A stretch of 64,000 nt of DNA from Zingiber officinale (Eukaryota; Streptophyta; Magnoliopsida; Zingiberales; Zingiberaceae). Below, piece by piece: positions 1-63,450 of this stretch. The stretch spans positions 8,876,894 through 8,940,893 of the forward strand of contig NC_056002.1 of assembly GCF_018446385.1 (NCBI RefSeq). Direction: 5' to 3'. The notes below the pieces were generated by a model. The model worked only from the letters and a program-made list of their open reading frames with translations. It was not told the origin of the DNA and searched no databases. Positions within the stretch are counted from its first letter, which is position 1. Each line of letters starts with the position of its first letter. A program made the position numbers and the translations under genes.

Positions 1-865
1 GTTGTAGTTATGACTTCAATTGGTTCAAGGGAGTCTTACAACAAAGGCGATGTTGTTGCCTTTCCAAGAGAGATCTTTTTTCGACATTAATAATGCATAG
101 GTTACGAAAGGACTCCTGCTTTCTTTAATAAAGTTTTTCTCTGTGGGAGTTCTTCGATCTAGTTATTTAGTTTAGCGTGTTCTCAAGATTCATATGGTAG
201 TATGGGAGTATTGACAAATGTGATCCATAAATGAGGTCTATTTTATGTTGAATCATGCACAAAGGTGGCAGTTCCTTGGGTATGACCCGACCTCAAACGA
301 AGGAATCACCTTGATGGGGACCTTGGTTGGTTGGTGAGGCGGTCGTGGTTCACTGCAGGTCACCAGTGGGATGTAGACCTGGTAGGGCTTTGCAGTGAGC
401 AGGAACTAGGGTGGTGCAAGGCTCTCAAATGCGGTGGTGGTTGGTGATGCTTGCAGCAAAGAAGGCAGCTGTTGGCAATGTGCCGCTGCTGGCATGCAGA
501 GACAAATGGTGGGAGTGATTTTTTTTGGGTGGAACGCTGGATGGGAGATCTGATGGTTTCGAGCACTTGAAGGGAAAGGAGAAGTGAATTGGGAATTCAC
601 ACATCTAGAAATTAGAGATTGAATTAGGAATTTAGCTCTGGTACCGATTGATGTAGCATGAGGAACAACTCAACTCATCAAAAGAGGAAATTTTTTATTA
701 ATTGAAATATTATCTAATACAAATATTCTAGGCAGGCAATGATATTCTTTATAGAAATATAACTTAATTATCTAAAAACTATCAAATTCATTAAAATATC
801 TAAATAATCTTATTTTTAAGATCTAAAGAAACACTTAAATGAATCTAAAAAAATATTTTATGTCA
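1..865 (-). mobile_element. LTR-element fossil in UPL intron, partial (copy 1)
   Basis: Tail part of the element described at 30490-32638. Here only the end of the internal region (1 to about 634), a primer-binding-site-like stretch (635-645, complementary-sense match to the initiator Met tRNA type) and one LTR (649-865) fall in the window. Target-site copy CCCTG follows at 866-870. Old and not coding. Confidence 0.6.
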
Positions 866-1071
866 CCCTGTGCATTTCTCATGATTTTAGCTTTTGAGAT
901 AATGGTTTACCCAGCCATGTCACACTCATATTTCCTTGATTTTGTGCCATATGAAATTAGACAAAAGATTGTGTTTTCAATGCCAATTAAACCTGATTAC
1001 TGCTCAAGGATTCAACTTGCTTATGAAGCATTACACTTTCTTGGGGATTTTAGAGTGTTTTTTCTCTGCAG

Positions 1072-4000
1072 ATTATCTGATAATGCATACAATCTTGTTG
1101 CTGAGGTCTTAAAAAAAGTGGTGGCCAATGCTCCAGCGTATTGTCATTTATTTACTACAGAGCTGGTCAATTCAGTGCGAAATTTAAGTATTTATGCAAT
1201 TAATGAACTTAACCTATACGAGGATGCTGAGAAAGCACTTCTCAGCTCATCTTCTATTAATGGTACTGCAATCTTGAGAGTTCTGCAGGCTTTGAGCTCT
1301 CTTATTGCTGCATTGCACGAAAAGAAGGACCCAGTTTCATTCCCCGACAAAGACCATATTAATGCTCTTTCTCATGTATGGGATATAAATTCTGCACTTG
1401 AACCTTTGTGGCTAGAGTTGAGCAATTGCATAAGCAAAATTGAGATCTCTTCAGGACCTCCATCAGAGCCTGAATCTATTTCAGGAAATTTGGCATCGAC
1501 GAGTACAATTGTAGTATCACCACTCTCTGTTGGTGCCCAAAACATCTTGCCATATATTGAGTCATTCTTTGTGACATGTGAAAAGTTGCGTCCTGGGCAA
1601 TATGAAACTGTTCAAGATTTTGCTACTACGGCAACTGACATTGAAGATGCAACTACACCAACTGCACAAAAATCATCTTGTGGGCCATGTACAAGCACCC
1701 ATGAAAAACAGGTTGTTTTTGTTAGGTTTCTGGAGAGGCATAGGAAGTTGTTAAATTCATTCATTCGTCAGAATCCTGGTTTGCTTGAGAAGTCATTTTC
1801 TCTCATGCTCAAAATTCCACGATACATTGACTTTGACAATAAACGGTCTCATTTTCGATCAAAAATAAAACATCAACATGATCATCATCACAGTCCTGTT
1901 AGAATTTCAGTGAGAAGAGCCTACATATTGGAGGACTCATATAACCAATTGCGAATGCGCTCGCCACAAGATTTGAAGGGAAAATTAACTGTCCATTTTC
2001 AAGGTGAAGAAGGTATTGATGCCGGTGGACTTACCAGGGAATGGTATCAGTTGCTTTCTCGGGTAATTTTTGATAAGGGTGCCCTTCTTTTCACAACTGT
2101 TGGCAATGAATCAACATTCCAGCCAAACCCCAATTCAGTTTACCAGACGGAACATCTTTCATATTTTAAGTTTGTTGGACGAGTGGTGAGTGATTTGATT
2201 ATTATCCTTTTCAAGCTTTTTTTGTTGTGATCACTAACATTGTCAAATTTTGCAGGTCAGTAAAGCACTCTTTGATAGTCAGCTCCTTGATGTCCATTTT
2301 ACAAGGTCATTTTACAAACACATTCTTGGTGTAAAGGTTACTTATCATGACATTGAGGCTGTTGATCCAGATTACTATAAAAATCTGAAGTGGATGCTTG
2401 AGGTATCCTGAAGTTCCTTGTACATTTTGGTGTTCTTTTACTGCATCAACATCTTCATTCTTTGATGTTTCATGATTCTTCTATTTTTCAAAATTTTTGA
2501 TCTTCCATTTATTTTATTTGCCATATTGCAGAACGATATAAGTGAGGTATTGGATCTTACTTTCAGTATGGATGCTGATGAGGAAAAACTGATATTGTAT
2601 GAAAAGGCTGAGGTGAATGCTATTCTTTTTCCCTTTATAATCATGTACTCCCATTATCTTTTATGTTAAGTTTGTACACTATAGGTATCATATAGCCTGT
2701 TTGTTTTGAAACTAAGGGGGTGCTTGGTTCGGGTAAGGGAATGGGAAAGGATATGGGAATGATTGCAAATATTATTGAAATGGGAATAATACCCATACCC
2801 CTCATATTAGTGGGGAATGGCCCATTCCTCTATTTAGAGGAATGAATCCGTGGGTCCCACCTTCATTTCCCCAAACCAAGCACAAGTTTAGTTTCATTCC
2901 CATTCCAAACCCCCCAAACAAGCAGCCCCTAAGTTTCTAGGAAATTAACCAAAATACATGGACCCTTGGAGTGACCTACACTTACCTAAAGATATGCAAT
3001 AGTAAATAGTTCAATGGATGTGATCTTGTCTTTTAATTATAAACTGATTCTATGTCTTGCTTTTAAATTTTTCTGGACTGTAGTTTGTTCCCTTTTATGT
3101 ACAAATCTATCCTGATTTGTATATATACTTCTCTTCTTGTGCATAGGTCTTTTACGATATTATACGTTCTTGGTGGAAAAGCTTGTACCGGAGCCTTAAA
3201 ATAATACACTAGATGCCTGTTTATTATACATTTCTCTTTCCTATTTATGACATGTTTATTGGGTGCATTTATATGCTAATTTTCGCTTTCAAGTCAGAAT
3301 TATGGTCCTTTACTAAATCTGTGAGACTTGAGAAACTTTAGACCGTCTTTTGCATGTTTGAAGTTGTATCCCCTTAAGTCCTGAACCTTTTAATTCATTA
3401 AATACATTTTTGTTTCTTGTTTTAGGGGTTATTATATTTTTCTGACATGTTCTTATATGCTTATATTTCAGGTAACTGATTCTGAGTTGATTCCTGGTGG
3501 GAGAAATATTCGAGTCACTGAAGAAAACAAACACGAATATGTTGATCGTGTGGCTGAACATTTGCTAACCACTGCAATTAGGCCTCAAATAAATGCATTT
3601 ATGGAAGGCTTTAATGAGTTGATACCCAGGGATCTGATATCTATTTTCAATGATAAAGAATTAGAATTATTAATAAGTGGACTTCCTGATATTGATTGTG
3701 AGTTGATGTTTGATGTGTTTTAAAGTTCCCACAGATATACTTTTCATATACACTTCTCTTATTCCTATTCTGTTTCACTTGTGACAGTGGATGACCTGAG
3801 AGCAAATACTGAATATTCTGGCTATAGCAATGCATCCCCTGTAATTCAATGGTTTTGGGAAGTCGTTCAGGGCTTCAGCAAAGAGGACAAGGCCCGATTC
3901 CTTCAATTTGTAACTGGCACCTCAAAGGTAGGTTCTTTGGCTAGATAAATGATAGTTGTTTGTATATGAAACATTGTCCTTAAAGTAGTAGATAGATAAT

Positions 4001-8651: not shown

Positions 8652-9170
8652 GAGTGGGAAGGAAGGTGTGCACTTGTACAGATAGGTGTATTCGACAGGG
8701 TTTTAAAAGCCAACTCTCTCCTTGCTGAGGGTCTGAAGTGTGGTTGCTTGGTCGCACTTATGGAATAGGGACTTCCTCAAATTGGAATTCAACCATGAAG
8801 TAGTCACCTTATGATTTGTGAGAGAAACCCCCATATATGATATACCACTCTTACTCCAGGCTGATGTTGCAGATTGTGGATGTGTCAGTCGTCCGAATCC
8901 CCGTGACTGCAAATCAAATCGTCTTGTATGGCGTCTCCTTTGCTAACTTTGTTTTTTTTTCCATATTATTTTTTAGTACAACTTTTGTACTCAAAAAACA
9001 GCAAAGCTCTCGTGGATATTTGGAACAGATTGTGAATGGCAACATCTTGTTATTCAGTAAAATGCATCCTTTTCTTATGAATCATCAACGTTCAGAATTG
9101 TAGATGTTCTTTTTTGATTAATTATTAAAAAAATATTCCAATCTTATCTGACCATCTAAAATAACAAATC
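8652..9170 (+). other. UPL 3' untranslated region and downstream flank (copy 1)
   Basis: Non-coding sequence directly after the UPL stop. It is mixed in composition at first, then T-rich with TTTTGTAC-type motifs (about 8945-8990) that could serve 3'-end formation. No clear AATAAA is seen at a usual spacing, so the poly(A) site is undecided. Copy 2 differs here by a few changes, including a 2-bp loss (GATGTGTCAG versus GATGTCAG near 8880). Confidence 0.4.
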
Positions 9171-9450: not shown

Positions 9451-9639
9451 CAAAAGTCAATCTGTTATCTTATCTTAATGGTCTTATATTGGTTAGGGAT
9501 ATGGAGGAAGATCAATATAGATACATAAACGTTAGATACATAAAAGAATAAATCCAATTAATTAATTATCCTTTTAAATCAATAAGACTTTTTTGGTCTA
9601 AGCATACGCCGTTGCCTTCTAGTTGTTTTGATCCTGTCT

Positions 9640-10228: not shown

Positions 10229-10364
10229 CTTTTATGAAGCATATCTCGACCAGTCGTTTGAACCAATCATATAAGGAGAACACCTTTTGCGAAGCATTTC
10301 TTGATTGGTTGTTTAAACCAATCATGTATGAAGAATACCTGAAGCATATCTTGACTGGTCATTT
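10229..10364. repeat. Short diverged repeats around GAAGCATATCT(C/T)GAC(C/T)(A/G)GTC (copy 1)
   Basis: Three related units begin with GAAGCATATCTCGACCAGTC, GAAGCATTTCTTGATTGGTT and GAAGCATATCTTGACTGGTC, each followed by a (T)TTGAACCAATCAT-like or AT-rich stretch. Spacing is about 50-60 bp. They lead directly into the 108-bp array. Copy 2 lies at 42005-42140. Confidence 0.5.
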
Positions 10365-10835
10365 ATATACTAGAAACCTTATAAGGCCGAGTGCCTCTAA
10401 GCTCGGTCGGGTTTTACCCATTCGAGCACATACAAGAACATTTGTGCTTGTTCGACCTTCGCTCGGTTATTCATATACTAGAAGCTTTACAAAGCTGAGA
10501 GTCTCTAAGCTTGATCGGGCTTTGCCAGCCTGAGCGCTTACAAGCACGTTTGTGCTTGTTCGACCTTCGCTCGGTCACTTACATACTAGAAGCTTGATAA
10601 GGTCGAGCGCCTCTAAGCTCTGTCGGGCTTTGCTCGTTCGAACATATACAAGCACGTTTGTGCTTGTTTGACTTTCGCTCGATCATTCATATACTAGAAG
10701 TTTGATAAGGCCAAGCGCCTCTAAGCTCAGTCAGGTTTTGCCCGTCCGAGCGCATACAAGCACGTTTGTGCTTGTTCGACCTTCATTCGGTTATTCATAT
10801 ACTAGAAGCTTTATAAGGCCGAGCGCCTCTAACCA
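10365..10835. repeat. 108-bp minisatellite with conserved hairpin (copy 1)
   Basis: Units begin with ATATACTAG (or ACATACTAG) at 10365, 10473, 10581, 10689 and 10797, exactly 108 bp apart, giving 4.4 units. Each contains GCCTCTAAGCTCGGTCGGG-like sequence, then the perfect stem-loop ACAAGCACGTTTGTGCTTGT (8-bp arms, 4-base loop) in three of the four full units, with a slightly decayed arm in the first. CGACCTTCGCTCGGT-like sequence follows. It is GC-richer than its surroundings and in no convincing reading frame. Confidence 0.85.
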
Positions 10836-12690: not shown

Positions 12691-12726
12691 GATACATAAA
12701 TTGCCATTCCCCACCAACTCTATAGA

Positions 12727-12734: not shown

Positions 12735-13240
12735 TTGCATTGGAATCGTGAATCTAGTCCAGCTGCTCTATCTGCACGTTCTACTTGTTTATAGTTTTCA
12801 TAAATGATGATAGCGCAATCAGAATTCAAAGTTTTGGGGCTTCCTAATCGTAATCTGGATGTAGAACAAAAAGATGATCATTAAAACGAATAATTTATGG
12901 AACCAGTGAACAGGTACAAACTTCGTCAACTAGCAGAGCATATCTTGTGAATTATTTTAGTGATGTAGACATGAACACATGTGGCTGAAACAATTGGCAA
13001 AGAAGTCCACTTTCTCAGCACATGCAAGACCACATCTACCGCCCTTCTTCTCTTCCAGTTGGACCCATTGAACCATAAAGCTTTCTGCAAATTTGCTTGT
13101 CACTCTCTCTTTCAAACCCACCACCCCTCACACACTTGCTTTTGTTTCCCTGTAATTGCATCTTTTTTTATGTCAGCGCTTTCCTTCTTGTTCCTTTCTG
13201 TCTCACAATTCTGCAAGTCCCCAAGTTTTCGCATTCCCTC

Positions 13241-14222
13241 ATGAAACTGAAGCTGAGAATTGTGTCCAAGGCAAGGCAGCTCCTGACTGCATCCTCAGAG
13301 GAGGACAAGGTGGTCAATAGTGAACAATTGGACTCCAGGAGACAGAGCGCCGGCCATGGTATTGCCCTTGCATTTCTTCCTGTTTCTCTATCTGATTTCT
13401 TTGCTTATTCATCTGGATGCTTTTTGTATGCAATTCTATTTTACAGTTGACATGTTCTTCAGTTTTATTTTGGAGTTAAAAAGTAGAACTTTTCTTAGTA
13501 AGCGGATCATATTGAGTATCTTTTCCTTATGTAGATCAAATTTCAAAATTACCTTTATTTTATGATTCCTTAATGCTCTGTTGGTGGTTGCTCTTTTGAA
13601 TCTGATTCATCTATGGGACCGCCACTTCGACTAGGAAGAGACAATGCGTTTAATGTACTTCCAACAAATAGAAATGTGTTCTAATGTGCTGATTCATTGC
13701 ATATTTATTAGGTACAAAGGATGAGACCTTCTTTGATTCACAGACATGGTTAGTAGATTCAGATTGTGAAGATGATTTTGTCAGTGTCAATGGAGGTTGT
13801 AAGATCACATATAAGTCTCAGATTATACTTTTTATTTCAACTTTCTTACAAATTTTGAAGATTTCTCTTTCCTGTCATATTTAGATTTCGTTCCTTCCAG
13901 TTCCAGAAATCAACTGGGCAACATCTTCTCCCCTACTAGTTTTCCTGAAGTTATCTCTGAGCCTCCGACTTATGGGAAAAGAAGTCTTGCTGAACTTCTT
14001 CAGGAGAGTCAACTAGATGAACTGGAAATCAAACAAAACGATGCCAATCACAAGTTGAAAGTCAATGGACAGCCATGCCGAGATGACATTAATTCTCCAG
14101 ATCACAAGGATTCAAGTCATCAGAAAGCTAAAAAAATGAAGCCCAAGCAGCGTTGCTTGTCAAGCTTGGTGCAGAGTCTGAGTTTCAAGGACAGGAGGAA
14201 CCGCAATGTTAATGAGCTCTAG
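13241..14222 (+). CDS. Plant-specific FFDS/SDCEDDF-motif protein, function unknown (copy 1)
   Basis: Three exons, 13241-13358, 13712-13795 and 13885-14222, total 540 bases and encode 179 residues. The basic start MKLKLRIVSKARQLL is followed by the motif FFDSQTWLVDSDCEDDF and VSVNGDF, then PPTYGKRSLAELLQES, and a basic tail KPKQRCLSSLVQSLSFKDRR. The acidic DSDCEDDF...VNGDF block and the basic C-terminus recall, from memory, uncharacterised plant proteins such as At3g27210. No catalytic domain, signal peptide or membrane segment is seen. It is probably an intrinsically disordered soluble protein. The ATG at 13241 is the only in-frame start before the motif that splices correctly. Exon 2 has two possible donors 3 bases apart (13796 and 13799). 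It lies alone between UPL and GCS1 on the same strand. Confidence 0.75.
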
Positions 14223-16901: not shown

Positions 16902-19900
16902 ATGAGCGGAGGTAGTCGACGGACGGCCCGCAATCGGGGGCGGCCGCCGACTATAGATGCCAGTGACGGAAAATCCCACCGCGACTCCCGCCCTGTGGAT
17001 GCGGTGAGAAAGGTTCGGAGCCGCGATCATGGCCCCATCCGTCTTATGGACGTCAGCCTCAAGACCCTTCTATGGTTAGGGTTTGGGTTCCTGGCTTTCA
17101 TTTCTGTATTTTTGTTGATTTATAATCATCATTGGGAATCTTGGCACGAGTCTCCGGCTTTGATGAGGTTGAGGAGGGTTGTCACCCCTTTGCAGGCCTC
17201 TAAGATGATGGATCTTGCCCAGGTTAGGTTGTCATCTATGAGAAATTGAGGTTATCATCTATGAGAATTTGTCTTAAGTTCAGTGTTAATCATCTGAAAA
17301 AAAGGAAAAAAGATGTATTTTAAAATATTTGGAATGGTTGCAGTTTCAAGGAGAGCATAAGGAAAGCCTGTACTGGGGCACATACCGGCCCCATGTCTAT
17401 TTCGGAATACGAGCAAGGTTACTTCCTTTTGTGGTTGTTTATTCCCCAATAACTCAATAGAAGATGCTAACATATTTCTTGAATTAGCTTGGCACCTGAT
17501 TGGAACCACTGCAAGTAGGGTTGAGTAATCGTGCATTTGGACTTACTTTGTAATTAAAAATGTTATTCTCTCTTTTGAGATGTCAGCAATAAAGTTGGAA
17601 TATTTCTAAGGAGTAAGGATTTTGTGAATCTCTAAGTGCACTAGCTACTTTCATACCTGAACCCTAAACACTACAAATCTTTATAATTTTTCTTTCTTAA
17701 TTTGTGACTTTTTTAAAGTTGAATGTTACTTAAATATATTCTATGATTTACATGTAGATTTCCTTTAAAGAAAGAAAGCCAAGTAATATTTTTATAAGCA
17801 TTTGTTTGGGAGTGATCTGTTGCTGTCTCTGCAGAACTCCACAGTCACTAATTGCTGGACTAATGTGGATAAGCATGCGAAATGGTCAGTACTTTCTTCG
17901 CCATGTTTGCCAAGATTCTGATGATCTAAGCACATATGGATGGAAAGATCACAATGGTAGGAGCTATGGTCGTCAATTAATCGTCGATCATGGATTATCA
18001 TTCACAACTAGTTTCTTAAAGGAGAAGAAGGAAGGAAGTGGCTTTGGAGGTGACTGGGCTGTCAGATTGGATCTACAGAATGCAAAGTAATTTTGGTCAT
18101 TCTTCCAGTTAATTTTATCAAACATTGAACTTTATTATGTCTCTAAGTATCGTGCTTTTTAGATTTATGGATTCTTCCAATCTTGTGGTATGATCAATTT
18201 CCCGTTCGGTTCGTTTACAGATCAATTGTACATGAGGGCAATGAAGAGACTACACATCTTTTCTTTTATATTGCTGATGAGGAAGGAAATTCTTTAAATG
18301 TAAAGAAGCAGCTATTTGAAACACGTGATGCCACCCTACTGGCATTTGGAACACGCAATGATATTGGAGGTTGGGAACTACATTTAGATTCCCAGGTATA
18401 GACCTCAGTAGATTCTGAATAACAGAACCTGATGCATCTTTTTTTAAGACTTGTCATGGTGGTATCATACTGCACTTTTTTGGTCATTCTCAGATGTTAG
18501 TATAGGCCTTGTATACCTTCTCATGTTGAAGTTTTAAATCCACTATTTTACTTTGTTCTTTTACTTGATAGGTCACATTTCATCTTATATTTGTAACAAA
18601 TGAACTGAACTTACTTTATAAGTATACATTCCATGTTTACATTAGATTATCCAATTTTAATGTTTTCGCTAAATATATAGTTGCAATAAGTTTGATTTAG
18701 TCAGGAGCTTAAATCCAGAAATTAGTTCTTTTACCAAGTGCTATTTAAACTGTCAAGGGACTTGGTAAAGTTTGATGGAAAGATCCTGCATCGGTTGAGG
18801 CAAAGAAAAGTGCTTACAATTTATGTCTTGATCGAGAGGATTTTTTTTTTTTTCACAATAAAAGTAACCTTGATCAAAGGCCCTTGGAAAGAGTTTCAAA
18901 GTTATATTTTTTTACAAGATATCTTGTACCTATAGGAGCAAAGCTATAGGTCCTGATTTGACACCACTTTTGGTCATGCGGACAATACTCAGCTAGTGTA
19001 GACCTAGTTTTTGATTGACCCCGTAAGTATAGTCCAATAGCACCCAGGTTTAAAATTTTGACATGTGCCTAAGTTTCAGTATATGACTGAAATGATACGG
19101 TTCCGGTTCCGTATTTTGTCATGCCGATATGGTTTTGATATATTTTTTTTTAATATAAAATATAATAATTAAAAATATTTTTATTAATATTTGATCGTTA
19201 TAGATGTATATTATTAAGTTATATTTGAGATATAATTTTATAGAGTTAGAAATTATATTATATTTATTTTTTTTTTATCTAAGAAGGGAAAAGGATTATA
19301 ATCTTTAAAGAGGTTAAGAGATTTTGTTTTTTTTTCTCTATTTAACTTAAGAGGTATTTTTTTTCCTCTTTATTTATTTTGATGGAGAAAAAAATAATGA
19401 ATAAAAGTAGGAAAAAATTAATAAGGGAGAAAAAAATTAATGAATAAAAGAGAAAAAATTAAGAAGGAAAAATTTAATAGGGAAAAGGAAATACCTATTT
19501 AAAAAATAAAAAATAACCTTTAAAATTTAAAATAAAAAATAAAACATGTCCTGGCCCTTAGTCTTAGAAGTTATCTCTGAAACTAATAATAGCTAGAGAT
19601 AAATATAATTTTGGGTATTTAAAAATGTTTAGGTACTTCACTTTTGTATTTTTTTTTTGAAAAAGGAATTTTTTTAGTACACATGCAGTCATTCATTTTT
19701 TTTTTTTTTTTATGAAGTAGAAGGATACATCAGAGTCTTTTAAAATAGCAAGTTTAGGTACTTCTCTTAAACCACATATACAAATCTATTAGGTGAAGAG
19801 TTTCTTCTTGCCAATTTATAGTATAAAAATTAAGTTATTCTGACCTAATGGTTTTTGCATGTGCTTTGCAGAGACATGTGGATACTCATTTTTCTGGGTT

Positions 19901-22900
19901 CAGAACCCATCATATGCACAATTTGACAGAACTCGTTCAGGGTACTCTCGCATTTCAAGTAAGTTTCCTCTTTTAGCAGTGATGTAAAATATATTGAGAT
20001 AAGGACATGTCCTTGTTTGGTAATCGTCTTCCCTTCAGCTTTCCCTTCTTTTTCTAAGGCTAAGATTGCATGAATGTTAATTAAAACTTTTTCTTGATTG
20101 CTGGCTTGTACTCAAGGCAAGAAGAACTGGGGAACTTCAGCTATCTGACACAATTGAAGAATCTTCAAATGTAGTTGTTATTCAGGTATTAATAGTTAAG
20201 AGTCTATATTGAAAATTTCAGTTTCTCTTGTTGGAATTCTGGAAAAGGACTGATAATGCTTTGACTGTGATGACTAAGGTAACTGTAATTCTGAAGCATG
20301 TACATTAAACTTTGGATCAGTGTTAATGTCACGATGCAACATGATTATATTAGATACCCACTCCTGTGACACATATTAGATGTGACTTCTCAGTCTTATT
20401 TTATTTTATTCAAGGACATCTGAGATTCTCTGCTCACAACTTCTAGATATTGAGAAGCTATTCTAGATGCTCAAATTTTGGAGTTAGATATCTGGCATAC
20501 TAATGATGTAAATAATTTTCCTTTGCTTTCTAAATGTTCTGAAGAAAACTTGTGAATGTTTGTTACAAGATATGGTATGGTGATTATAAATGCTTAAAAT
20601 ATCATAATGCATAAGACTTGGACTGCACATAATTACTAATAATCACCTTGTTCATAATGTGAATTGGACTACTATTTTAGATCTTATTGTGGCTTCTTTA
20701 TCTGGCCTCAATATCCTCATGTCTTCTTTCGGTGCTTCATACTCGAGTAATTTCACTGTTTAATCTATCTAATGGGTATATTCTCTGGATATTGTCGATA
20801 ATATGGTTTTATCTAAACACTGGCATAGATGAATTGCCGATTTAAAAGAAAGTTTGTGTTATGTTTGTTGAGTCAATATTCTTTTATCTATAGAAAATCT
20901 TCCTCATGATTTTAGTTATTTGGTTATTGTTTTCTTTCAAAACTTATTGTATTTCCTTCCAGATTTCAACTGTTCTTCCTGCAAAACTAGATATTGCTTT
21001 TGTATCTGGAACTAATATGAAAGGCTCTTTGGTAGATCAACGTCTCCACAGTCTTACAGGTATGATTGTCCCACCTCCCCTCAGAAAAAAGGAAAAAAAA
21101 TTAACGTTCCTGATAGCACATTCTCAACTGATCCAACCATATTCTGTTGACCATAGCTATGACCAGGACTTGATATTTGATAGATTGAAAGAACAATATT
21201 TAAATCACAAAACATCTTGATGAGTTACTGGAGTCAATGTGAACTTTTTTAAAATCATTTTCGTATAATGTTACTTAATGTCAGCAAAATGAAGAAGGGG
21301 AGCCTTGGCGCAACGGTAAAGTTGTTGCCATGTGACCAAAAGGTCACGGGTTCGAATCCTGAAAACAGCCTCTTGCAAAAAGCAGGGTAAGGCTGCGTAC
21401 AATGGATCCTTCCCCGGGATCCCGCACGGCGGGAGCTTTGTGCACCGGGCTGCCCTTTTTAATGTCAGCAAAATGAAGCAAGAACTTTTTCTTGAGACTG
21501 TCCCTTAAAATTGAGAAAGGTTATACTATGAAAATGGAATATAATGTATCCATTTGTCACCAACAACAATGGATTTTTCAGTGTAAGAGCTTTTCTGTTG
21601 TCTATTATTATTTTTGTATTTTTTAAATAATTTAGCAACAGACAATTCCTACTTTATGCTGCAGTTTTCCCACCAATGTCCTTTTCTTTAAAAGAAGTTC
21701 TTGTTAATTCTTTCCATCAGGAGAAATATTGTCTACTCGTCTAGATGAGAAGCAAAAGGAATTTGAAGACAAGTATCTTAGATATTTTAAACTGAAGGAT
21801 AAGGTATGTTCGTTTGATTTTTTTTTTCTACACACAATCATGTGTAGTTGATTACCCATTTTAGCTTCCTTTCCGATTACTTACCATTCCACAATATTTC
21901 AGCATTTACGCTTGTTGTTTGTGCGCAATGCACTTTAGATCATATTGATTCTCCATTTTAGATTCCTTTCAAATTACTTGCATATGTTTTATGTTTGAGT
22001 GCAACACACAGCACACTTAAGATCACAGTAGTAAAATTTCTTATACCTTTTGGTGTTACCATAATTATTTATATGTATCATAAGCTTTGAAGCACAGATT
22101 TTTGTTAACAGAAAAAAAGAATAACATATGTCAATCCCAGCTACTTTGATCAATTTCATTAACTCTATCCTTCCAGTGAAATCTATGAAAGCTTATATCA
22201 GTAATTACAGCTAAGCTTTTAAATCAATTTTAATTATTTTTTGATTATGTTAATTAGAGTTTTTTTTGGATAAGTAAAAAATATATATCAAAGCAAGACC
22301 AAGGTACAATACTAGAAATTAGTAGCGTCTTATGTCTAACATAATGTCAGATCAAAAAACACTCCCAAAGTCTTGTAAATATGCATTTGTACATTTCTAA
22401 AGATTTTCTCACTCTCCAACTGTCCCTCATCAAAGATGCAAGTGTTCTTAGATCTCTATACAAAGTGTATCAAAGTCGACATCTCAAGGTGTCGGGCTTT
22501 AGTCAAGAGACGTCCTCCTTTGAAGACATGCCCAAAGACTCGTAGCATTTGTTGGTAGGTAGACATCTCCGACCCCATCTGTAGTTACTCTTTGACCCTT
22601 CGCCATAAAATCACTACAGGAGGGCATCCAAAAATAAGTGTGACTCCATTTCCTGCCTACAAAAGACACAACACTGATCCTCCATGTAGTCCAATTTGTC
22701 TTTGGTTGGAAGTCGCCCAGCATCCAAAGTGTAATTTCATGACTAGGCTGGATGTAGGGCTTCCACACTTCCTCACCCAGGGCTTCTTAGGACTGGGATA
22801 CCTAAAAATGTCATAAGCCCTAGCCACACCTCTGTCCTGCTCAAACCAATCTGCCAACCTTTGCATAGAACATGCTGGGAATCAGAGTAGCCGTAGGATG

Positions 22901-25900
22901 AGGTCATGGATATTCAACAACCGCTTGATCAGCGGGGAATCTGAGTGCACCGCCTCCCAATTAAAGTTTTCTTTTGTCTTCCTCTGTCCCTCATTGTTGG
23001 GTTTGAGAATTTTTCTATTTTCTTTGTTGTTTATAAGAAAATAAAAATTTGAAGGTTGAAAGGATAATAAAACAAATATTTAACATTGATTTCTTTGACA
23101 TATTTAAATTTTATAGAGGTGAATGATATGTTAAGTATTTGTTTTTTATTTTTCAATTTTCAATGACCTTGTTTTGTCTTATGAAATCGGCAAACTGGAA
23201 GTAGAAATTTTACATGAATAAGTTTTATTAAACATAATTGTTCCCCAGCTATATTTGTTATATCATCTTTTTCAGTAACACCATAAGTGGTTGATCATAC
23301 TTCAATTTAAAAAAAAAATAATCTAAAAGGCACACAATGAACACAGAAGATTCTAGATGTTTCTCTCCAATTCAACTGACTGCTCTTTATCTGATTGACA
23401 ATATCTTTATCTACCTCTTGCTATAAATAGCACAGTCAAGACAATTTAAAACTCTCTATATGCTAGTCCTTTCTTGATTTGCTAGATTTCCCTAATTGTT
23501 CCTTTTTTCCCCAATCATTTCACTGTAAAAGTATTATTTGTTTGCATATTTCAATGTTTGAGGATGTTGAACTTGAATTTACTTATAGAAAGTAAAAAAT
23601 TACCAAGACAGCACCTTTGTGCATAGTTAATGATTAAATTGATTCTTTGGTACTTTGTAAAGTTTAGATTAGTGATCTATTGCATCTAAGTTTAAAGCAG
23701 TAGATATATAATTCGTGCCTGAATAAGGAACGTGCTAACAATTGAAGCTATGATCTTACTACAATAACGCTAAAAGTAAGGGTATTTTTGGAAACGAAGA
23801 TGTGTTAAGGTGGGATGAGTGCTGTTTTGATGATAAATGAAAAAGGAGTGCTCTTTTGACGATTCCAATAAAAAGGGATGTTCTTTTGATTTTTGCCCAT
23901 CTGTTTTCGACAAAAAAAATCCAAACACTCCATTAGAGACTATTGAGAAGTTTTTAGCATGATTTTCTAGTCAAAATTCTATGATTTAGGCCATGACAGA
24001 GTTATTATCAACTTAAAACATGTGAACAATCCGTTTAGGACTCCTAGGAAGTCTAGATTTTTTTTGCCAAAATAACAAATTTTGGTCATTTAGGACTTGG
24101 GAAAAATTCTTTTGTGGTCAATTTTAAATTAATTATGCTTTGGTATACATCTCACTCCTACAAATTCACTGCTATATCCTTTTTTTTTCAACAAATTTTG
24201 CCATTGAAATAATTAGATAAGAAAAAGAGATTTTCGTTTGCCAAACCATGGGATATTTTGGACTATGTGGTGAGAAAAAGTATTTTATTTTGGCAAAAAG
24301 AAAGTATGATGTGTCCTTTAGGGAAAATCCAAACTGAGAAAACTGAAATTTTCTTGGCAAATCTGTCTCAGATGTTTATTGTTCCTTTTTTTTATAAATT
24401 GTTTCTTCAAAGTCTCACTTTTTTCTATATTAATATTTTTGAAAATAACCATGCAAAGTGAAGGGAATTAGAAGAGTGAAATCAGCTTGACATCATATTG
24501 ACATGTTTTGAGGATTTCATAGCATGCTGAGTTCTGGCATGACATCACACTGGAATAGTATTGTATGGGCCAAGCTTTGAAACTCCATTATAGAGTGCTA
24601 CTTTGAACCTTGCTTTGGAAAAACATAGGCTTCTATATCAATAAGTGCACTTCTGTTTACATGCTTATTGCAGACTATCTAGGCAGAATTGTTTAACAGC
24701 ATAAGTTGTTTATAGTATACATCTTATGGTATGTCTGCACCATAGTTTCCATGGAAACATAAGCATTGAAGATGGAAAATGGATTGACATGGAACACTAT
24801 TTGACTTCTTAACTTAATTCAGGTTGATTCTGAACTGATGGCTGTTGGTAGGGCAGCCTTAGGAAATCTGCTTGGAGGAATTGGCTACTTCTATGGTCAG
24901 TCAAAGATTGCCTTACCAGAAGGTTACACTGTAAGTGTAAGGTTTGTTAAGTTTCAAAGATTTTTAACCTGCTGCACATTCTCTCTTTCTATTTATCAAC
25001 CATAGCTTTTATGATCATCAAACTTAGAGGTGTGATAGACAGTGGGAATATATGTCAAATCATTGAAAATTTTATTTTATTTTATAATTCTTCCATATAA
25101 GCTTGCTATTTTATTGTCTCGTTTGATTTACTTTATTTATCTTTTGAAAATTTGTGTCATATACTCTGAGATGTATATGAATCTTTTATCACCTAAATTT
25201 GTGATATTTTTTTTGCCCATTTATCTCCTAAATCCTAAATAGATTAGTCACCATTAATCCTTGGTAATTAGATTATGGTGTTCACGTGAAAGGACTTTTA
25301 TATTATAAACATGCCATATTTTCTGTTAGATTTATTGTATCAAATCATTCTGCTCAAGATAGAAATTGACCTTTGATTATGAGCACTAAGCATGCAAGCA
25401 TGTTATATTTGATCCCTGAAGTTGTATTATGTTATTATGATTAACCTTTGGTAGAAAGTATAGTAAGAATGTTATATTTGATCTCTTTGGCAGCAAAAGA
25501 ATGGGGATAAGTTTATTTCTTATTGGCCAGCTGCACTTTTTACAGCTGTTCCTAGTAGATCATTCTTTCCAAGAGGTTTTCTTTGGGATGAAGGCTTCCA
25601 TCAAATGATCATCGGGTTTGTCATATACTATGATTATTTTCGCAGAGTCTAGCAGCTCAGCTGTTAAATTTCTATTGAATAAAATTCTAGCATCTGGAAT
25701 TAGGCTCATTTATGATCTGATGTACTTTTCTTGAAATATGTATCATGTTAATGTTAATAGGCGTTGGGATGCTGATTTATCCATGGACATCATTGGGCAT
25801 TGGTTGGATCTCATTAATGCTGATGGATGGATTCCTCGTGAGCAGATTTTAGGTGCTGAAGCGTTGAGGTAATTTAATCGCAATTTATATGAGATTGTGG

Positions 25901-27848: not shown

Positions 27849-28087
27849 GTGAGTTTTTATTTTGAGTAAACTGTAACTAAAACCTTTTTCTGTTCTCATG
27901 TGTAGCATTCTGATTCTAAAAAAAATAACACCAAGTGCTGTTCAAACTTTTAAGTTGTAATCATGGTCATGAAGACCATAGCTGCTCAAGAGTTCTAGCA
28001 AGCTATATACTGATACCCATTTCTAAGTTCATAGCTGTGGACTCATAGTAAATATTGGGATCAAACTATTAGTTTTTTCAATATAAA

Positions 28088-28443: not shown

Positions 28444-28550
28444 ATATAAATACATCATATTTAGTGTTTTTTATTAAAATTTGAGCACATGTTTCACCTT
28501 TTCTTGCAAAGTGTTTAGAGCCTGTGTAACCTCTATGTTTAGTGGTTACT

Positions 28551-28922: not shown

Positions 28923-29022
28923 NNNNNNNNNNNNNNNNNNNNNNNNNNNNNNNNNNNNNNNNNNNNNNNNNNNNNNNNNNNNNNNNNNNNNNNNNNNNNN
29001 NNNNNNNNNNNNNNNNNNNNNN
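28923..29022. other. Assembly gap, exactly 100 N
   Basis: One hundred consecutive N. A round 100 is a common scaffolder placeholder and says nothing about true length. It separates GCS1 intron 13 on the left from the inside of a UPL exon on the right. Any reading frame drawn across it is artificial. Confidence 0.99.
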
Positions 29023-54600: not shown

Positions 54601-57600
54601 AGCCACACCTCTGTCCTGCTCAAACCAATCTGCCAACCTTTGCATAGAACATGCTGGGAATCAGAGTAGCCGTAGGATGAGGTCATGGATATTCAACAAC
54701 CGCTTGATCAGCGGGGAATCTGAGTGCACCGCCTCCCAATTAAAGTTTTCTTTTGTCTTCCTCTGTCCCTCATTGTTGGGTTTGAGAATTTTTCTATTTT
54801 CTTTGTTGTTTATAAGAAAATAAAAATTTGAAGGTTGAAAGGATAATAAAACAAATATTTAACATTGATTTCTTTGACATATTTAAATTTTATAGAGGTG
54901 AATGATATGTTAAGTATTTGTTTTTTATTTTTCAATTTTCAATGACCTTGTTTTGTCTTATGAAATCGGCAAACTGGAAGTAGAAATTTTACATGAATAA
55001 GTTTTATTAAACATAATTGTTCCCCAGCTATATTTGTTATATCATCTTTTTCAGTAACACCATAAGTGGTTGATCATACTTCAATTTAAAAAAAAAATAA
55101 TCTAAAAGGCACACAATGAACACAGAAGATTCTAGATGTTTCTCTCCAATTCAACTGACTGCTCTTTATCTGATTGACAATATCTTTATCTACCTCTTGC
55201 TATAAATAGCACAGTCAAGACAATTTAAAACTCTCTATATGCTAGTCCTTTCTTGATTTGCTAGATTTCACTCATTGTTCCTTTTTCCCAATCATTTCAC
55301 TGTAAAAGTATTATTTGTTTGCATATTTCAATGTTTGAGGATGTTGAACTTGAATTTACTTATAGAAAGTAAAAAATTACCAAGACAGCACCTTTGTGCA
55401 TAGTTAATGATTAAATTGATTCTTTGGTACTTTGTAAAGTTTAGATTAGTGATCTATTGCATCTAAGTTTAAAGCAGTAGATATATAATTCGTGCCTGAA
55501 TAAGGAACGTGCTAACAATTGAAGCTATGATCTTACTACAATAACGCTAAAAGTAAGGGTATTTTTGGAAACGAAGATGTGTTAAGGTGGGATGAGTGCT
55601 GTTTTGATGATAAATGAAAAAGGAGTGCTCTTTTGACGATTCCAATAAAAAGGGATGTTCTTTTGATTTTTGCCCATCTGTTTTCGACAAAAAAAATCCA
55701 AACACTCCATTAGAGACTATTGAGAAGTTTTTAGCATGATTTTCTAGTCAAAATTCTATGATTTAGGCCATGACAGAGTTATTATCAACTTAAAACATGT
55801 GAACAATCCGTTTAGGACTCCTAGGAAGTCTAGATTTTTTTTGCCAAAATAACAAATTTTGGTCATTTAGGACTTGGGAAAAATTCTTTTGTGGTCAATT
55901 TTAAATTAATTATGCTTTGGTATACATCTCACTCCTACAAATTCACTGCTATATCCTTTTTTTTTCAACAAATTTTTGCCATTGAAATAATTAGATAAGA
56001 AAAAGAGATTTTCGTTTGCCAAACCATGGGATATTTTGGACTATGTGGTGAGAAAAAGTATTTTATTTTGGCAAAAAGAAAGTATGATGTGTCCTTTAGG
56101 GAAAATCCAAACTGAGAAAACTGAAATTTTCTTGGCAAATCTGTCTCAGATGTTTATTGTTCCTTTTTTTTATAAATTGTTTCTTCAAAGTCTCACTTTT
56201 TTCTATATTAATATTTTTGAAAATAACCATGCAAAGTGAAGGGAATTAGAAGAGTGAAATCAGCTTGACATCATATTGACATGTTTTGAGGATTTCATAG
56301 CATGCTGAGTTCTGGCATGACATCACACTGGAATAGTATTGTATGGGCCAAGCTTTGAAACTCCATTATAGAGTGCTACTTTGAACCTTGCTTTGGAAAA
56401 ACATAGGCTTCTATATCAATAAGTGCACTTCTGTTTACATGCTTATTGCAGACTATCTAGGCAGAATTGTTTAACAGCATAAGTTGTTTATAGTATACAT
56501 CTTATGGTATGTCTGCACCATAGTTTCCATGGAAACATAAGCATTGAAGATGGAAAATGGATTGACATGGAACACTATTTGACTTCTTAACTTAATTCAG
56601 GTTGATTCTGAACTGATGGCTGTTGGTAGGGCAGCCTTAGGAAATCTGCTTGGAGGAATTGGCTACTTCTATGGTCAGTCAAAGATTGCCTTACCAGAAG
56701 GTTACACTGTAAGTGTAAGGTTTGTTAAGTTTCAAAGATTTTTAACCTGCTGCACATTCTCTCTTTCTATTTATCAACCATAGCTTTTATGATCATCAAA
56801 CTTAGAGGTATGATAGACAGTGGGAATATATGTCAAATCATTGAAAATTTTATTTTATTTTATAATTCTTCCATATAAGCTTGCTATTTTATTGTCTCGT
56901 TTGATTTACTTTATTTATCTTTTGAAAATTTGTGTCATATACTCTGAGATGTATATGAATCTTTTATCACCTAAATTTGTGATATTTTTTTTGCCCATTT
57001 ATCTCCTAAATCCTAAATAGATTAGTCACCATTAATCCTTGGTAATTAGATTATGGTGTTCACGTGAAAGGACTTTTATATTATAAACATGCCATATTTT
57101 CTGTTAGATTTATTGTATCAAATCATTCTGCTCAAGATAGAAATTGACCTTCGATTATGAGCAGTAAGCATGCAAGCATGTTATATTTGATCCCTGAAGT
57201 TGTATTATGTTATTATGATTAACCTTTGGAAGAAAGTATAGTAAGAATGTTATATTTGATCTCTTTGGCAGCAAAAGAATGGGGATAAGTTTATTTATTA
57301 TTGGCCAGCTGCACTTTTTACAGCTGTTCCTAGTAGATCATTCTTTCCAAGAGGTTTTCTTTGGGATGAAGGCTTCCATCAAATGATCATCGGGTTTGTC
57401 ATATACTATGATTATTTTCGCAGAGTCTAGCAGCTCAGCTGTTAAATTTCTATTGAATAAAATTCTAGCATCTGGAATTAGGCTCATTTATGATCTGATG
57501 TACCTTTTCTTGAAATATGTATCATGTTAATGTTAATAGGCGTTGGGATGCTGATTTATCCATGGACATCATTGGGCATTGGTTGGATCTCATTAATGCT

Positions 57601-60600
57601 GATGGATGGATTCCTCGTGAGCAGATTTTAGGTGCTGAAGCGTTGAGGTAATTTAATCGCAATTTATATGAGATTGTGGACAATTTATTCACATGAAACT
57701 TGTTCAATATTTGCAGTAAAGTACCTGAGGAATTTGTTCTTCAATATTCAACAAATGGGAATCCACCAACTTTATTTCTTGTTATAAGAGGTGCAGTAAC
57801 TTTACCTATACATATATTGCCTACCTACTAATTGAAAAATGTATTGTTTTTGAATTTATGCTGTGTGCTTATAAAATTGTGTTGATGATTAAATTGCCTT
57901 CAATTTGTTGTCCTTGCTTGTGGAGGCATGTATGTTTAGCCAAAGTTCACAATATTCATTCACATACCAAGATTTTGACCAACTTAAAAAATGGCTAAGT
58001 TTCAAAACAGATATTGAAATAAAGATCTACTCATGGAATTTTCATCTTCTAACAAATACAATCACAGCTTGCTGTCTCAGATTTCAACTCATCTTTTTGG
58101 AGCTCCATAAATGGAACTATTCCTGAAATATATTAAGCATGGTCAGTTCAAAGTGCTTGCGAGATTCGAGTTTTGCTTGCATTGCGTGATAAATTAGCAT
58201 ATTGTTTTGTAAATACATTGCTTATATATTGTACAAAGAGTAAATTTATGGAGAGGCAGTGCTGGGCGGGGCTAGGTAGCAAGGAGAGGAAGTGCAAGAT
58301 GATTAACTGACTTGATTTGGGTGTTGGCAAGGGTGATGGTGACATACTTGATGGTGGCGGTGCCAACAAGGGCCTTCTGCTCCAACAAGGGGCCCTTGAG
58401 GCAGTTGAGAGCTACCATCAGGGGAAGCAATGCCGCCATGGGATCCAACGGAGAACCCCCAATGTTTCCTTGTTGCAAGAGAAAGAAAGGTGTGAATGAG
58501 ACTTTTTCCATTCTATTTACAAGTGATCATTGCTGATTAGCTGCTTCTCTGTTCAATGTTCTCCACAAATTTATGTGGAACTTTTTTTTTTGGGCCAAAG
58601 ATGTTGCTGCAGAAAGCTTCCTGTTTTTTACTCCCAGCAGAAGTTACAAGGGTTAACAGTGGAAATGCCACTCAATCCTTGCTCTGGAGGCATAGCTTCT
58701 GGAGAAGTTGCAGAAAAGTTGCAGAAATTGTGACAGTTTTGTTGGAACTTTGAATTTAGTTTTTTCCATATAATTTTAACTCAGGGCATTAGGAGTTAAG
58801 ACGAACTGAAATTGTGGGCTAGAGATGGATGCTGCCAAGTGTTTGTAACATATTTGTTTAAGCAGCATCTTGGGATATAGTTATCACTAAATAAGCAAAC
58901 TACAGCCATAAAGATTTTAGCACCAGTGGGTAAAGAATCTACTGCTCTTTAGATGATAGAAGGGTGAGTCTTAAGTTTTCCATGATGTAAAAATAAATAT
59001 TGTGTTTTGGGTGCCTTAATTTTTTTTAATATATATCACATGATTGGGTGACTGAATCATCCTCTATCTTGCTGTTGCAATTCAGAACTATTCTACAGAA
59101 ATCTCAGATTCCTTTGCTATGCTATTTTCTGAGGTAGTTTTAGTTGGTTACATGTATTTTTTTTAAAAAACAATTTATATATATAGATATTTGGTATGAT
59201 TTGATTGAAGCATCCTCCATACTGTTGTTACGGTTCATAACTATTCTATAGATTGTCTCAGTTTCATTTATATGCTATTTTCTGAGATAATTATAGCTGT
59301 TTCCCGTGGATATGCATACATTGAGTGTGTGTGTGGGTGTCGTGTAACTTTAACTGGGGGAATTGTATATGCCCATGAGAATTGTTTCTGCAGATGTGGT
59401 TATTTGCCTGATTTGACAGGAAAAATAAATCTGTGTTTGTGCTAACTGTTCTTTCTGTTGAAACATTTATAAGTGGGTGTTTGATTGCAAACAATCTTCT
59501 AACAGACTTACTAAATGGCATACGGTCAAGTAAATTTTCACCTCAGGAAACCGATGAGATCACTGATTTCCTCAAGAGAGCCTATGTCCGCTTGAATGCA
59601 TGGTTCCAATGGTTCAATAGTACACAATCTGGTGAGTTTTTATTTTGAGTAAACTGTAACTAAAACCTTTTTCTGTTCTCATGTGTAGCATTCTGATTCT
59701 AAAAAAAATAACACCAAGTGCTGTTCAAACTTTTAAGTTGTAATCATGGTCATGAAGACCATAGCTGCTCAAGAGTTCTAGCAAGCTATATACTGATACC
59801 CATTTCTAAGTTCATAGCTGTGGACTCATAGTAAATATTGGGATCAAACTATTAGTTTTTTCAATATAAAGTTGTCGGGTCACTGATTAATTGCCCACTT
59901 GGAGACAACTGATTTTCTTTATATTATTTGCAATATGTTCACCTGTTTTGTTGCAATGTGGTTATTCATTTTTATATGATGGAACTAATATAGGCAATGA
60001 GTTCCTTTGAATTCAACATTGAAAATATATATGATGGAATTAATTTAGGCGATGAGTTCCTTAACCTTCAACATTGTCGGGTCACTCCTTAATTTCCACT
60101 TGGTGATGACTAATTATCTCTATCCTATTTGCAATAGGCTTACCTGTTTGGTTGCAATGTGGTTATTCTTTCATGTATGATGGAACTAATATAGGCAATC
60201 AGTTCCTTAAAAGTTCAACGTTGAATATATAAATACATCATATTTAGTGTTTTTTATTAAAATTTGAGCACATGTTTCACCTTTTCTTGCAAAGTGTTTA
60301 GAGCCTGTGTAACCTCTATGTTTAGTGGTTACTTATTATTATTATTATTATTATTTTTTTATATTGCCACATCTCATTCAAGAATGTTTGACGAGATGTT
60401 TAGCTTGATGAGTTTTGCAGCTAGACACTAGGATTATGTACTGGGCTTACTCGTGCATGTGCATATCTGTGTATATATTGCTTTTTGTATGACAGTGTCA
60501 ACATTCTCATTTGAAGTATTTAGTGTGCATGCATACATAACTTTTTGTGTGTTCCTGCTCTATATCAATCAATCAATATTGTACTTGTGCAAAATGTAGA

Positions 60601-63450
60601 TTAGTCCATAGAATTCTCATGGAATTTGCACTACACTTATACGTGAGTGATGCTAAATGGCCAACTGAAAGTTCTTATGAGATTGGTTGGCTTTTTTGCT
60701 CTGCACCTTAAATTTAGTAACACTTTCTTCTACTCAATTATTTGTCTTATTTTAACTACTTTAATAAATAGAAGTGAAGCTCCTCAACGATGTTCAGTGC
60801 ATTTTGCTTAAAGTATAAAAAGTTTTAATATATTTCATCCATTTGGAACGCATGCTTTATGTGATTTTGGGGCTTTTGCATGACATATTGTTGTCTTAAT
60901 TACAATGGTTCACAGGAAATGATGTAAACACGTTTTACTGGCATGGAAGAGATAATGCAACAACTAAAGAATTAAACCCAAAGGTTTGGTTCCTTGCTTC
61001 TTCGTTTTCATGTATAGCATTTGGCATTTAATTAGATTATTTATTTGAACTCGTTTCTACGTGACTTGCACGTGCATTATTATCCATTAAAGAATCAATA
61101 TAATATACTGATATAAAAATCGAGTTCCAGAATGAATTCCAAATCTTAATATAAAAAATTATGTAGATAAATAACACTTTTGAATTGCACTATAAATGGT
61201 TCCATGGAAGAATTAAGATATAGTGTCCAGGGATTAAAATACTGTGCCGAAACGGGTGAAACATCTCGTTCTGCTCGTTGACCGGCATCAGCACGATCCC
61301 GGTACCAGGCCCCGGGGCAACAGAGAGGTGTCGCGCGACCCCCGCATCTGCAGCGGTGGCGTAGCGCGACCCCGCGGTAGTCGCGGAGGGGTGGCGTGAC
61401 CCCCATGGCCCTAGGGGGTCGCCCGACCCTGCGGCCGTGCTGGAATCGCATGAACCTGCGACTGTGACTTTCTTGTGCGCAGGTGGGTGTTTTTTCTATT
61501 AAAACTCAGGTAAATTATTTTAATCAATTCCTAGTTATGATAAAGATAATATAAAGAGGCTTTATTAAACCCTAATAAAATTATCTAATTAATTTATTTT
61601 AACTCTATAAAAATATAATAAAATTTTTATTTATTTATCTATCTATTTTCATATTTATTTTCAGATTATTTTTATATTTAAAATATTTATGTTAAATATT
61701 TTATTTTAAATTAATATATTATATATTTAAAAAATACTGAAACTATATTGACACAGTGCGATACGATACCGAAACTGTATCGTTCCGATCTAGGACCGAA
61801 ACCTCAGCACGGGTCGAGATTTTAAACCATGATAGTGTCTACTTCCAATTATTATTATCAGAATAGTAAAATGAAGTTCTAGTAAACTTAACAAGATGTG
61901 GTCAATATATTCTGAGTCTTAAATAACCTTCGGTCATTTTACTTGCATATGTATCATATTCTTCTGAGATTTAAAATGTCATTGCCAAGATTTTTATTTT
62001 ACCACATCATATTGTCCAGATATGTAATGCTACTGGATTTCAACTTGAGGGAATATTGGTTTAGAGTGAATAAGGTCATGGACCTTTGGAGGAAATTCAT
62101 GAAGACTTGGCTTGGAGGATCATTTGACTTTCTCTATTTAAAATTTTTGTGAACAACCAGTTGGAATGAAAAAACAACTATGGATCATCATAGTCAAGAT
62201 TGCATCTGGGATCTTGGATTTTACAGTCCTCCAATCTAAATTAACCTAAACGATCTAGATCCCAAGTAGGATGTCAATTGAGCCAGGATCTTATCAACCT
62301 ACAATCTAATCCTATGTTTGCTTAATGTTCCTGCATAGGATCTCAGTTCCAACAATCATTACTAGATAGATGGTTTGACAAAATATATGTAAATACAATT
62401 AGGCATTTTAAAAATTGTTATTTATTATTGCAAATATTTTGTTTGTTTTATATCATTTGAGAAAATTTCCAATTGTATAATGTTCTTTCTAAATCCCAAG
62501 TAACAAAACCTTTTTAAATATTGCCATTATCATCCATCTTATAACTATTGTTATATTATATATAATTAGTTGTATTTCTTTTGTCTACTATTTTACTATC
62601 TGAATAATTTTATTTGTGCTTCATGATATCATAATGATAGCACTTAAAATGTTTACATTAATACTATATATTGAAACTTTATATATATATATATATATAT
62701 ATTATAAAAGTCAAATATAGGTCTAAACTATTTTAATAAAAAGGTAGTATCTTATGATCTTATGCTTTTATCATATGAACCTCTTCACATTCCATGGTAT
62801 GATTTTGATCCTGACAACCTTGTCATAGAAAGCTGTTACTCATAGTTAACATTCACAGCTTCTTTTGTCTCTATCACATTTTTTGCAATGATTTCGTCAT
62901 TAGAATAAGTGACAGCTAATTAAAGATATATACTTTATGACTTGTTCTCTAGCATGAATGCCATGCCTTTGCTTATCAGAAACTAAATACTGCATTTGAT
63001 TTGTTCAATAACTCAGAGATCATAATGCCTAAAATTGGTAGTTTTTTTGCTATCATATCAGGCTGGTTAACCTTTTGGGATAACCCATAAGCCAGCACAG
63101 CTGAACAGGAAATAATTTTGTATTTCAGGTTTGTTTTAGCTTTGATTAATTTTTATATCACGTTTTAATTTGCAGACATTGACTTCTGGATTGGATGATT
63201 ATCCTCGTGCATCCCATCCAACTGATGAAGAACGTCACCTAGATCTAAGATGCTGGATGCTTCTCTCTGCAGATTGCATGCATTCAATTGCAGAACTTCT
63301 CAAAATGGAAAATGATGTCACGGAGGTATTGAATTAGATTTATATCTATATCATTAATCTATACTCTATAGTAAAATAAACTTTCCAGTAAATTTGCAGG
63401 ATTACCACACAATGGTGAAGCAACTTTCAGATTTTGAGAAACTTAATCAG
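48679..63450 (+). CDS. GCS1: Mannosyl-oligosaccharide glucosidase (alpha-glucosidase I, GH63), exons 1-16, runs off window (copy 2)
   Basis: Exons: 48679-48999, 49121-49194, 49612-49863, 49998-50172, 51649-51735, 51894-51962, 52740-52836, 53498-53580, 56601-56708, 57272-57393, 57540-57647, 57717-57790, 59506-59631, 60916-60983, 63176-63325, 63400-63450. These give 655 residues in one uninterrupted frame; plant homologues are roughly 850, so about 200 remain beyond the window. Exons 14-16, absent from copy 1, encode [20 protein letters not shown] and ERHLDLRCW (607-615). The last matches the nonapeptide described as the substrate-binding motif of mammalian glucosidase [11 protein letters not shown] ends exon 16, and no further exon is evident before 64000. 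Difference from copy 1: residue 431 Ser (TCT) to Tyr (TAT) in exon 10, plus a silent Leu change in exon 5. Confidence 0.94.
50822..51337. mobile_element. Partial non-autonomous hAT element in GCS1 intron 4 (copy 2)
   Basis: Counterpart of 19045-19560, same start motif and same missing terminus. Confidence 0.5.
53072..53237 (+). mobile_element. Au SINE in GCS1 intron 7 (copy 2)
   Basis: Identical by eye to 21295-21460, with the same perfect 18-bp target duplications at 53054-53071 and 53238-53255. Confidence 0.93.
54039..54764 (-). mobile_element. Antisense L1-type LINE 3' fragment with zf-RVT domain, GCS1 intron 8 (copy 2)
   Basis: Counterpart of 22262-22985. It has two extra A in the run near 54408, which shifts the residual zf-RVT frame relative to copy 1. 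Confidence 0.72.
59871..60225. repeat. Direct duplication of ~150-bp units, GCS1 intron 13 (copy 2)
   Basis: Counterpart of 28088-28443, second unit starting near 60073. It differs at several bases (for example ATTTAGGCGATGAG versus ATTTAGCTGGATGAG in copy 1). The copy 2 form restores similarity to the GGCAATGAG of the neighbouring unit. Confidence 0.7.
61228..61831. mobile_element. Non-autonomous hAT element with GC-rich core, GCS1 intron 14
   Basis: A 604-bp element with terminal inverted repeats CAGGGATTAAAAT / CATGGTTTAAAAT (right end read inward). Perfect 8-bp target duplications ATAGTGTC lie at 61220-61227 and 61832-61839. An 8-bp duplication with CAGGG-type ends is the hAT signature, and the left end is close to that of maize Ac. 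The left third (about 61250-61480) is very GC-rich with recurring (G)GTCGCGCGACCCCC-like units about 30-40 bp apart. The right part is extremely AT-rich. No transposase, so it is mobilised in trans or dead. It lies between exons 14 and 15. Confidence 0.82.
61840..63175. other. Rest of GCS1 intron 14
   Basis: AT-rich intron sequence with no coding signal. A perfect (AT)n run lies at about 62681-62702. Exon 15 starts at 63176 after TTTGCAG. Confidence 0.5.
62681..62702. repeat. (AT)n microsatellite
   Basis: Eleven or so AT units in GCS1 intron 14. Confidence 0.85.

Follow-up and report, generated by a model that had tools for sequence, protein, structure and literature searches.

Probable unmerged contig overlap on one ginger homologue beside a plausible tandem duplication of the same 37-kb unit on the other

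Two nearly identical sequences set end to end across an assembly gap may record a tandem duplication, or a single chromosomal sequence that was assembled twice. This question is raised by a 64,000-nucleotide stretch of the Zingiber officinale genome (the window; C17:8876894-8940893, in an assembly of 3,090,333,446 bases in 211 sequences), wherein positions 1-28922 recur at 31774-60710 as one collinear alignment of 99.755% identity (44 mismatches, 19 gap openings and 27 gap bases). The initial annotation had read the repeat as two unmerged contigs or haplotigs, citing near-identical collinear copies that share their transposon insertions, a run of exactly 100 N as the only junction, and a dovetail arrangement of contig ends. 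For comparison we added 30 kb to the left and 20 kb to the right of the window, and 130 kb of C18; the copies on the left and right C17 contigs are designated A and B, and the two on C18, C1 and C2. Each of the cited observations was borne out. The N run (28923-29022) measures exactly 100 and is the sole one in the 114 kb of C17 examined, no transposon-sized indel separates A from B in an overlap alignment whose gap bases total 27, and, with flanks included, the A-B overlap extends to 31,694 columns (31.7 kb) at 99.779% identity, starting at C17:8905916, the first base of the right contig after the N run, and stopping at C17:8905815, the last base of the left contig before it. The forward-strand repeated unit begins 6.9 kb upstream of the window (C17:8869958). 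Copy A (1-28922) ends 1.3 kb before the unit does, and copy B (29023-62017) begins 4.2 kb inside the unit and continues to its end at 62017 (C17:8938910), where a right flank common with C18 takes over. Jointly, A and B span one complete 37-kb unit, which as a single sequence would measure 37,165 bp, against 37,001 for C1.

Both limits of the unit fall within genes. On the left, the limit interrupts a long open frame (C17:8866147-8872731) with DUF908, DUF913 and UBA domains by Pfam match, about 150 bases 3' of UBA. HECT-domain matches occur on the forward strand at 2256-3930 in A (C17:8879149-8880823) and at 34029-35703 in B (C17:8910922-8912596); these HECT exons and the DUF908/DUF913/UBA gene we take to be a single UPL1/2-type ligase. 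Farther along the same strand lie an open frame with the N-terminal Glyco_hydro_63 domain of GCS1 (17758-18087; E 2e-21) and GCS1 catalytic-domain exons covering PF03200 positions 65-210 (25494-27856 in A, 57272-59639 in B). The exon for PF03200 positions 226-283, also on the forward strand (63161-63337), is outside the unit and, like the later GCS1 exons, has a single match on C17 and a single one on C18; the right limit accordingly falls after the exon for positions 164-210 and before that for positions 226-283, in what is presumably intronic sequence. The gene identities proposed initially for UPL (HECT, DUF908, DUF913, UBA) and GCS1 (Glyco_hydro_63 and 63N) agree with these domains, and two open frames of the middle gene, provisionally named for an FFDS motif (13079-13447 and 13815-14219), gave no Pfam match at E 0.01. 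Because the limits of the unit cut UPL and GCS1, a chromosome carrying the duplication holds each of these genes once in full and once truncated; two full UPL or GCS1 genes would not be expected even from a real duplication, contrary to the two of each that the sequence suggests at face value. Several minor repeats also populate the region. A 108-bp unit is tandemly repeated in 4.4 copies (80% matches) at 10357-10832; numerous partial repeats within 14.7-16.7 kb of the window, in direct and inverted orientation and 67-77% identical, are probably decayed repeat sequence; and two directly repeated sequences of about 2.8 kb, 4.7 kb apart and 95-97% identical (C17:8846947-8849701 and 8851669-8854461), could be the LTR pair of one element.

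Genome-wide, a 901-base segment taken from the unit matches at four places, with C17 and C18 holding two each. C18 (120.7 Mb, vs 137.7 Mb for C17) is the homologue of C17, the flanks adjoining the unit being collinear at about 97-98.5% identity and, farther out, at 90-95% with insertions; HECT matches likewise pair adjacent contig numbers at similar positions (C11/C12, C9/C10, C17/C18), and the C17-C18 haplotype difference is about 2%. On C18 the 37-kb unit forms a direct tandem, C1 at 9349380-9386380 followed by C2 at 9386379-9423880, and there is no N in the 130 kb of C18. At their junction the end of the unit (...CATATTGTCC) and its start (TCCTGC...) have 3 bp in common, TCC, and GCS1, between two of its exons, is joined to the giant exon of the UPL1/2-type HECT gene. 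A 1,001-base query across this junction has one full match, on C18, among 42 matches listed (the best 40 of 2,780 candidates scored), the next four from the same 40 of 2,780 being half matches at unit starts or ends; the large number of candidates stems from a common repeat inside the query. As assembled, therefore, C18 carries a gap-free junction with both unit limits fixed, and its tandem duplication is supported, because duplications inside one contig are, by the excerpted text of one survey (PMC2864568), rarely false. The junction (C18:9386379-9386381) places the 5' part of GCS1 ahead of a UPL1/2 gene lacking its N-terminal region, and a fused transcript may result.

Sequence running directly from GCS1 into the UPL exon had been named beforehand as what would refute the overlap reading. 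The C18 junction is nearly that sequence, but on the other homologue: it is present as assembled on C18 and absent on C17, so that the locus may hold a real duplication besides an assembly overlap. No sequenced inter-copy junction was found on C17, the sole full match among the scored candidates being that on C18, though the C17 gap could hide one; nor did the scored candidates include a second junction or a fourth unit start on any other contig. We also considered unequal crossing-over between long repeats at the limits, and rejected it: neither on C18 nor on C17 do the 4-kb stretches around the left and right limits align with each other over more than 20 bp (E up to 1), and recombination between long repeats is hence not a likely origin.

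The four copies offer a direct view of how A and B relate to C1 and C2. A duplication that predated the split of the haplotypes, and was not followed by homogenisation, would predict many characters that unite A with C1 and B with C2. The four-copy alignment comprises 31,019 gap-free columns, 29,935 constant and 1,084 variable; among the latter, 561 separate A and B from C1 and C2, twelve group A-C2 against B-C1, and the opposite grouping, A-C1 against B-C2, never occurs. The remainder are private to C2 (432), C1 (36), A (17) or B (13), or multiple (13), although 294 of the 432 C2-private sites lie at 26664-27321 of the window, where C2 has a different insert and aligns poorly. Indels of at least 5 bp in the overlap (n=48) tell the same story, being assigned to A and B (16), to A, B and C1 (13), to C1 and C2 (9), to C2 only (6), to C1 only (3) and to B and C1 (1), with none splitting A-C1 from B-C2. 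The positional pairing expected of a shared duplication is thus absent (0 of 1,084 columns, 0 of 48 indels), which fits a single C17 sequence assembled twice, so far as the comparison of these sequences can tell. Separately, a rearranged 1.1-kb block within GCS1 (C18:9420003-9421092, vs 9382835-9383546) sets C2 apart from the other three copies; when a 1,201-base query with this block was compared with the 114 kb of C17, its first 762 bases had no match, identity reached 98% over bases 763-1115, and short segments at the ends were 100% identical.

The number of unit starts points the same way. A 1.5-kb piece taken between 1.0 and 2.5 kb into the unit occurs in three copies at about 100% (A, C1 and C2), with the next best match at 83%, among the best 40 of 62 candidates scored. 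Given only three unit starts in the scored candidates, the assembly would have to lack about 5.5 kb (4.2 + 1.3) if C17 held a second unit, while nothing is absent if A and B are one unit with both of its flanks. Nor can A and B be taken for the two haplotypes of the plant, since C18 is the homologue and the divergence between A and B is roughly one tenth of that between C17 and C18. Of the initial reading, then, the unmerged contigs stand, with an overlap that runs to both contig ends, but the haplotig does not, the other haplotype being C18 and about 2% different; an unmerged overlap of one haplotype suits A and B better.

The few differences between A and B merit closer scrutiny. They amount to 72 events, 18 indels and 54 substitution columns, about one third of the latter representing, from our reading of the list, shifted indels or contig-end errors. 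They concentrate near where contig A ends and within a short insertion (2717-2929, limits approximate) of a repeat with many genomic copies, which is present in A and B and absent from C1 and C2; 1-2 base indels in runs are similarly error-like. Within the insertion, A is up to 99% identical to other genomic copies and B at most 94%, among the best 40 of 337 and the best 40 of 362 candidates in the two comparisons, a simple reading being that polishing overwrote A with reads from other copies of that repeat. We therefore do not accept the A-B differences as proof of two loci, their densest cluster lying in this insertion, where A and not B resembles the other copies. The twelve sites at which A has the base of C2 and B that of C1 are another matter. 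Six fall within 409 bp (19949-20357), three at 25032-25519, and the last three inside or close to the terminal error cluster of A (28267, and perhaps 27556, inside it). They are not random error, and could be either true A-B differences or the product of mixed read correction; they are the best evidence against a single-copy C17. A further point against an artefact is the identity of 99.78% itself, as few of the falsely duplicated contig pairs surveyed by Kelley and Salzberg (2010; PMC2864568, excerpted text) exceed 99.5%. Many of the differences are error-like and twelve sites match C2, and the differences may accordingly include both errors and alleles. In its general behaviour the A-B pair resembles a single sequence bearing assembly errors more than two paralogues of long standing.

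We judge it probable, on what the assembled sequences reveal, that C18 is duplicated, that the assembly was thereby tangled, and that a single C17 copy was left as two unmerged contigs. C17 would then have one copy of the 37-kb unit, and two contigs overlapping by 31.7 kb would have been joined through 100 N instead of being merged. The C18 junction would offer reads from the unit end two continuations, into the right flank or into the unit start, and at this fork the assembler would have cut its path. Contig A halts 1.3 kb before the putative fork; contig B would begin at the start of the leftmost read crossing the fork into the C17 flank, 33 kb leftward, a plausible long-read length. A chance overlap of contigs with no biological cause is unlikely, because the very unit concerned is tandem on C18. 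The published haplotype-resolved ginger assembly (Cheng et al. 2021; PMC8342452) names the longer homologue A and has 219 scaffolds; according to the excerpted text, Canu-corrected ONT reads were assembled by SMARTdenovo or wtdbg2, with no phasing-aware step among those described, then polished, Hi-C scaffolded and gap-closed, with 577 gaps remaining, about one per 5 Mb. If ours is that assembly, an unphased ONT origin with 577 gaps fits an unmerged overlap. The excerpts of a second report describe a PacBio assembly of the ginger 'Zhugen' (PMC8342499).

The contig layout itself does not decide the matter, as a true duplication on C17, concealed by the gap, would yield the same arrangement, each contig ending within the unit, at 1.3 and 4.2 kb from the respective limits. 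Tandem duplication of both homologues, in which the 100-N gap has swallowed the C17 junction with about 5.5 kb of surrounding sequence, and in which exchange between neighbouring copies on a chromosome keeps them alike, is accordingly a rather unlikely possibility, though one to be taken seriously. It would account for the placement of the gap where C18 is tandem, with both C17 contig ends inside the unit, and the twelve sites described above suggest that A and B may truly differ. Yet it leaves unexplained the complete lack of sites and indels pairing A with C1 and B with C2, it requires homogenisation over 31.7 kb of C17 when parts of the C18 copies are 1.9-2.2% apart by BLAST, and it calls for a fourth unit start, which was not found among the scored candidates.

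The composition of C1 bears on the remaining possibilities. C1 (C18:9349380-9386380) nearly always equals either A/B or C2, only 49 of 1,084 variable columns being C1-private or multiple (36 private sites in 31,019 columns), and these two affinities alternate in blocks, seen at 6.9-28.9 kb of the window. The two site types form 53 runs, where 2,000 shuffles gave 489 on average and never fewer than 442; with the badly aligned repeat block excluded, over 6.5-26.7 kb of the window only, they form 40, where the shuffles averaged 206 (lowest 175). Left of the junction, C1 is C17-like, B differing from C1 at 9 of 1,279 sites and from C2 at 41 of 1,241, where the nine exclude gaps and the match to C17 over 1 kb has 27 gap bases. 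Right of the junction C2 is C18-like, differing from A at 19 and from C1 at 3 of 4,184 sites, while across the 18 kb that follow it departs from C1 at 25 sites of 18,371 compared, and from A at 376 of 18,202. Such a patchwork could reflect either a recent duplication between homologues or read correction that mixed them. We tentatively entertain the former, namely that the C18 tandem arose very recently in one diploid plant, as a duplication between homologues by microhomology-mediated template switching, with a left copy that mixes the plant's own haplotypes, has a C17-type end at TCC, and sets the 5' part of GCS1 ahead of a UPL1/2 gene from which the N-terminal region and the UBA domain are missing; this more specific account is, at present, doubtful.

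The patchwork could instead be taken to mean that all of the duplication is artefactual, C18 being single too and C1 a chimeric contig of C18 and C17 sequence, joined to C2 by a chimeric read or in gap closing. The run counts (53 vs 489, and 40 vs 206 without the badly aligned block) and the C17-like left and C18-like right sides of the junction would accord with this. It is nonetheless very improbable: the junction is embedded in sequence free of gaps, both of its sides are matched and overlap cleanly by 3 bp, duplications within a single contig are rarely false in the excerpted survey (PMC2864568), and without a real junction there would be no evident cause for disturbance on both homologues. 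Scarcely credible is a duplication on C17 only, with its junction reads pulled into the C18 contig, for although the 502 bases left of the junction are 100% identical to C17 and 97% to C2 among the matches listed, the right side is C18-like, C2 differing there from C1 far less than from A (3 vs 19 of 4,184 sites; 25/18,371 vs 376/18,202 in the next 18 kb).

Under the preferred reading, a duplicated C18 and a single-copy C17 left as unmerged contigs, a probable artefact and a plausible real duplication of one and the same unit sit on two homologues, and removal or retention of duplicates by identity alone would get one of the chromosomes wrong. Ginger is propagated clonally. Should the C18 duplication be both real and recent, it would represent an inter-homologue rearrangement in a crop whose infertility is discussed by Cheng et al. 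in the excerpted text (PMC8342452).

Heterozygous tandem segmental duplication with a microhomology junction is a general known kind of structural variant. The direct repeat of 37 kb on C18, with 3 bp shared at its junction, resembles it; the haplotype patchwork of C1 is unusual for a simple duplication, or is partly a consensus artefact. On C17, neighbouring contigs that align with each other up to both of their ends recall the duplicated overlapping contigs of Kelley and Salzberg (2010; PMC2864568), in which aligned ends of neighbour contigs form a false segmental duplication; in the excerpted text, however, those cases involve two haplotypes in one assembly and are mostly under 2 kb, with a median identity of 98.1%, whereas the C17 pair is of one haplotype type and 99.78% identical over 31.7 kb. 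Ko et al. (2022; PMC9516828) list inter-copy gaps and low depth, again in excerpted text, as marks of false duplications, and the gap between near-identical copies on one scaffold of C17, with many error-like differences beside the twelve sites that match C2, is as in their homotype false duplications. The C17 case differs in that it was likely triggered by a duplication on the homologue. This locus would represent a new case of a known artefact, next to an ordinary kind of structural variant.
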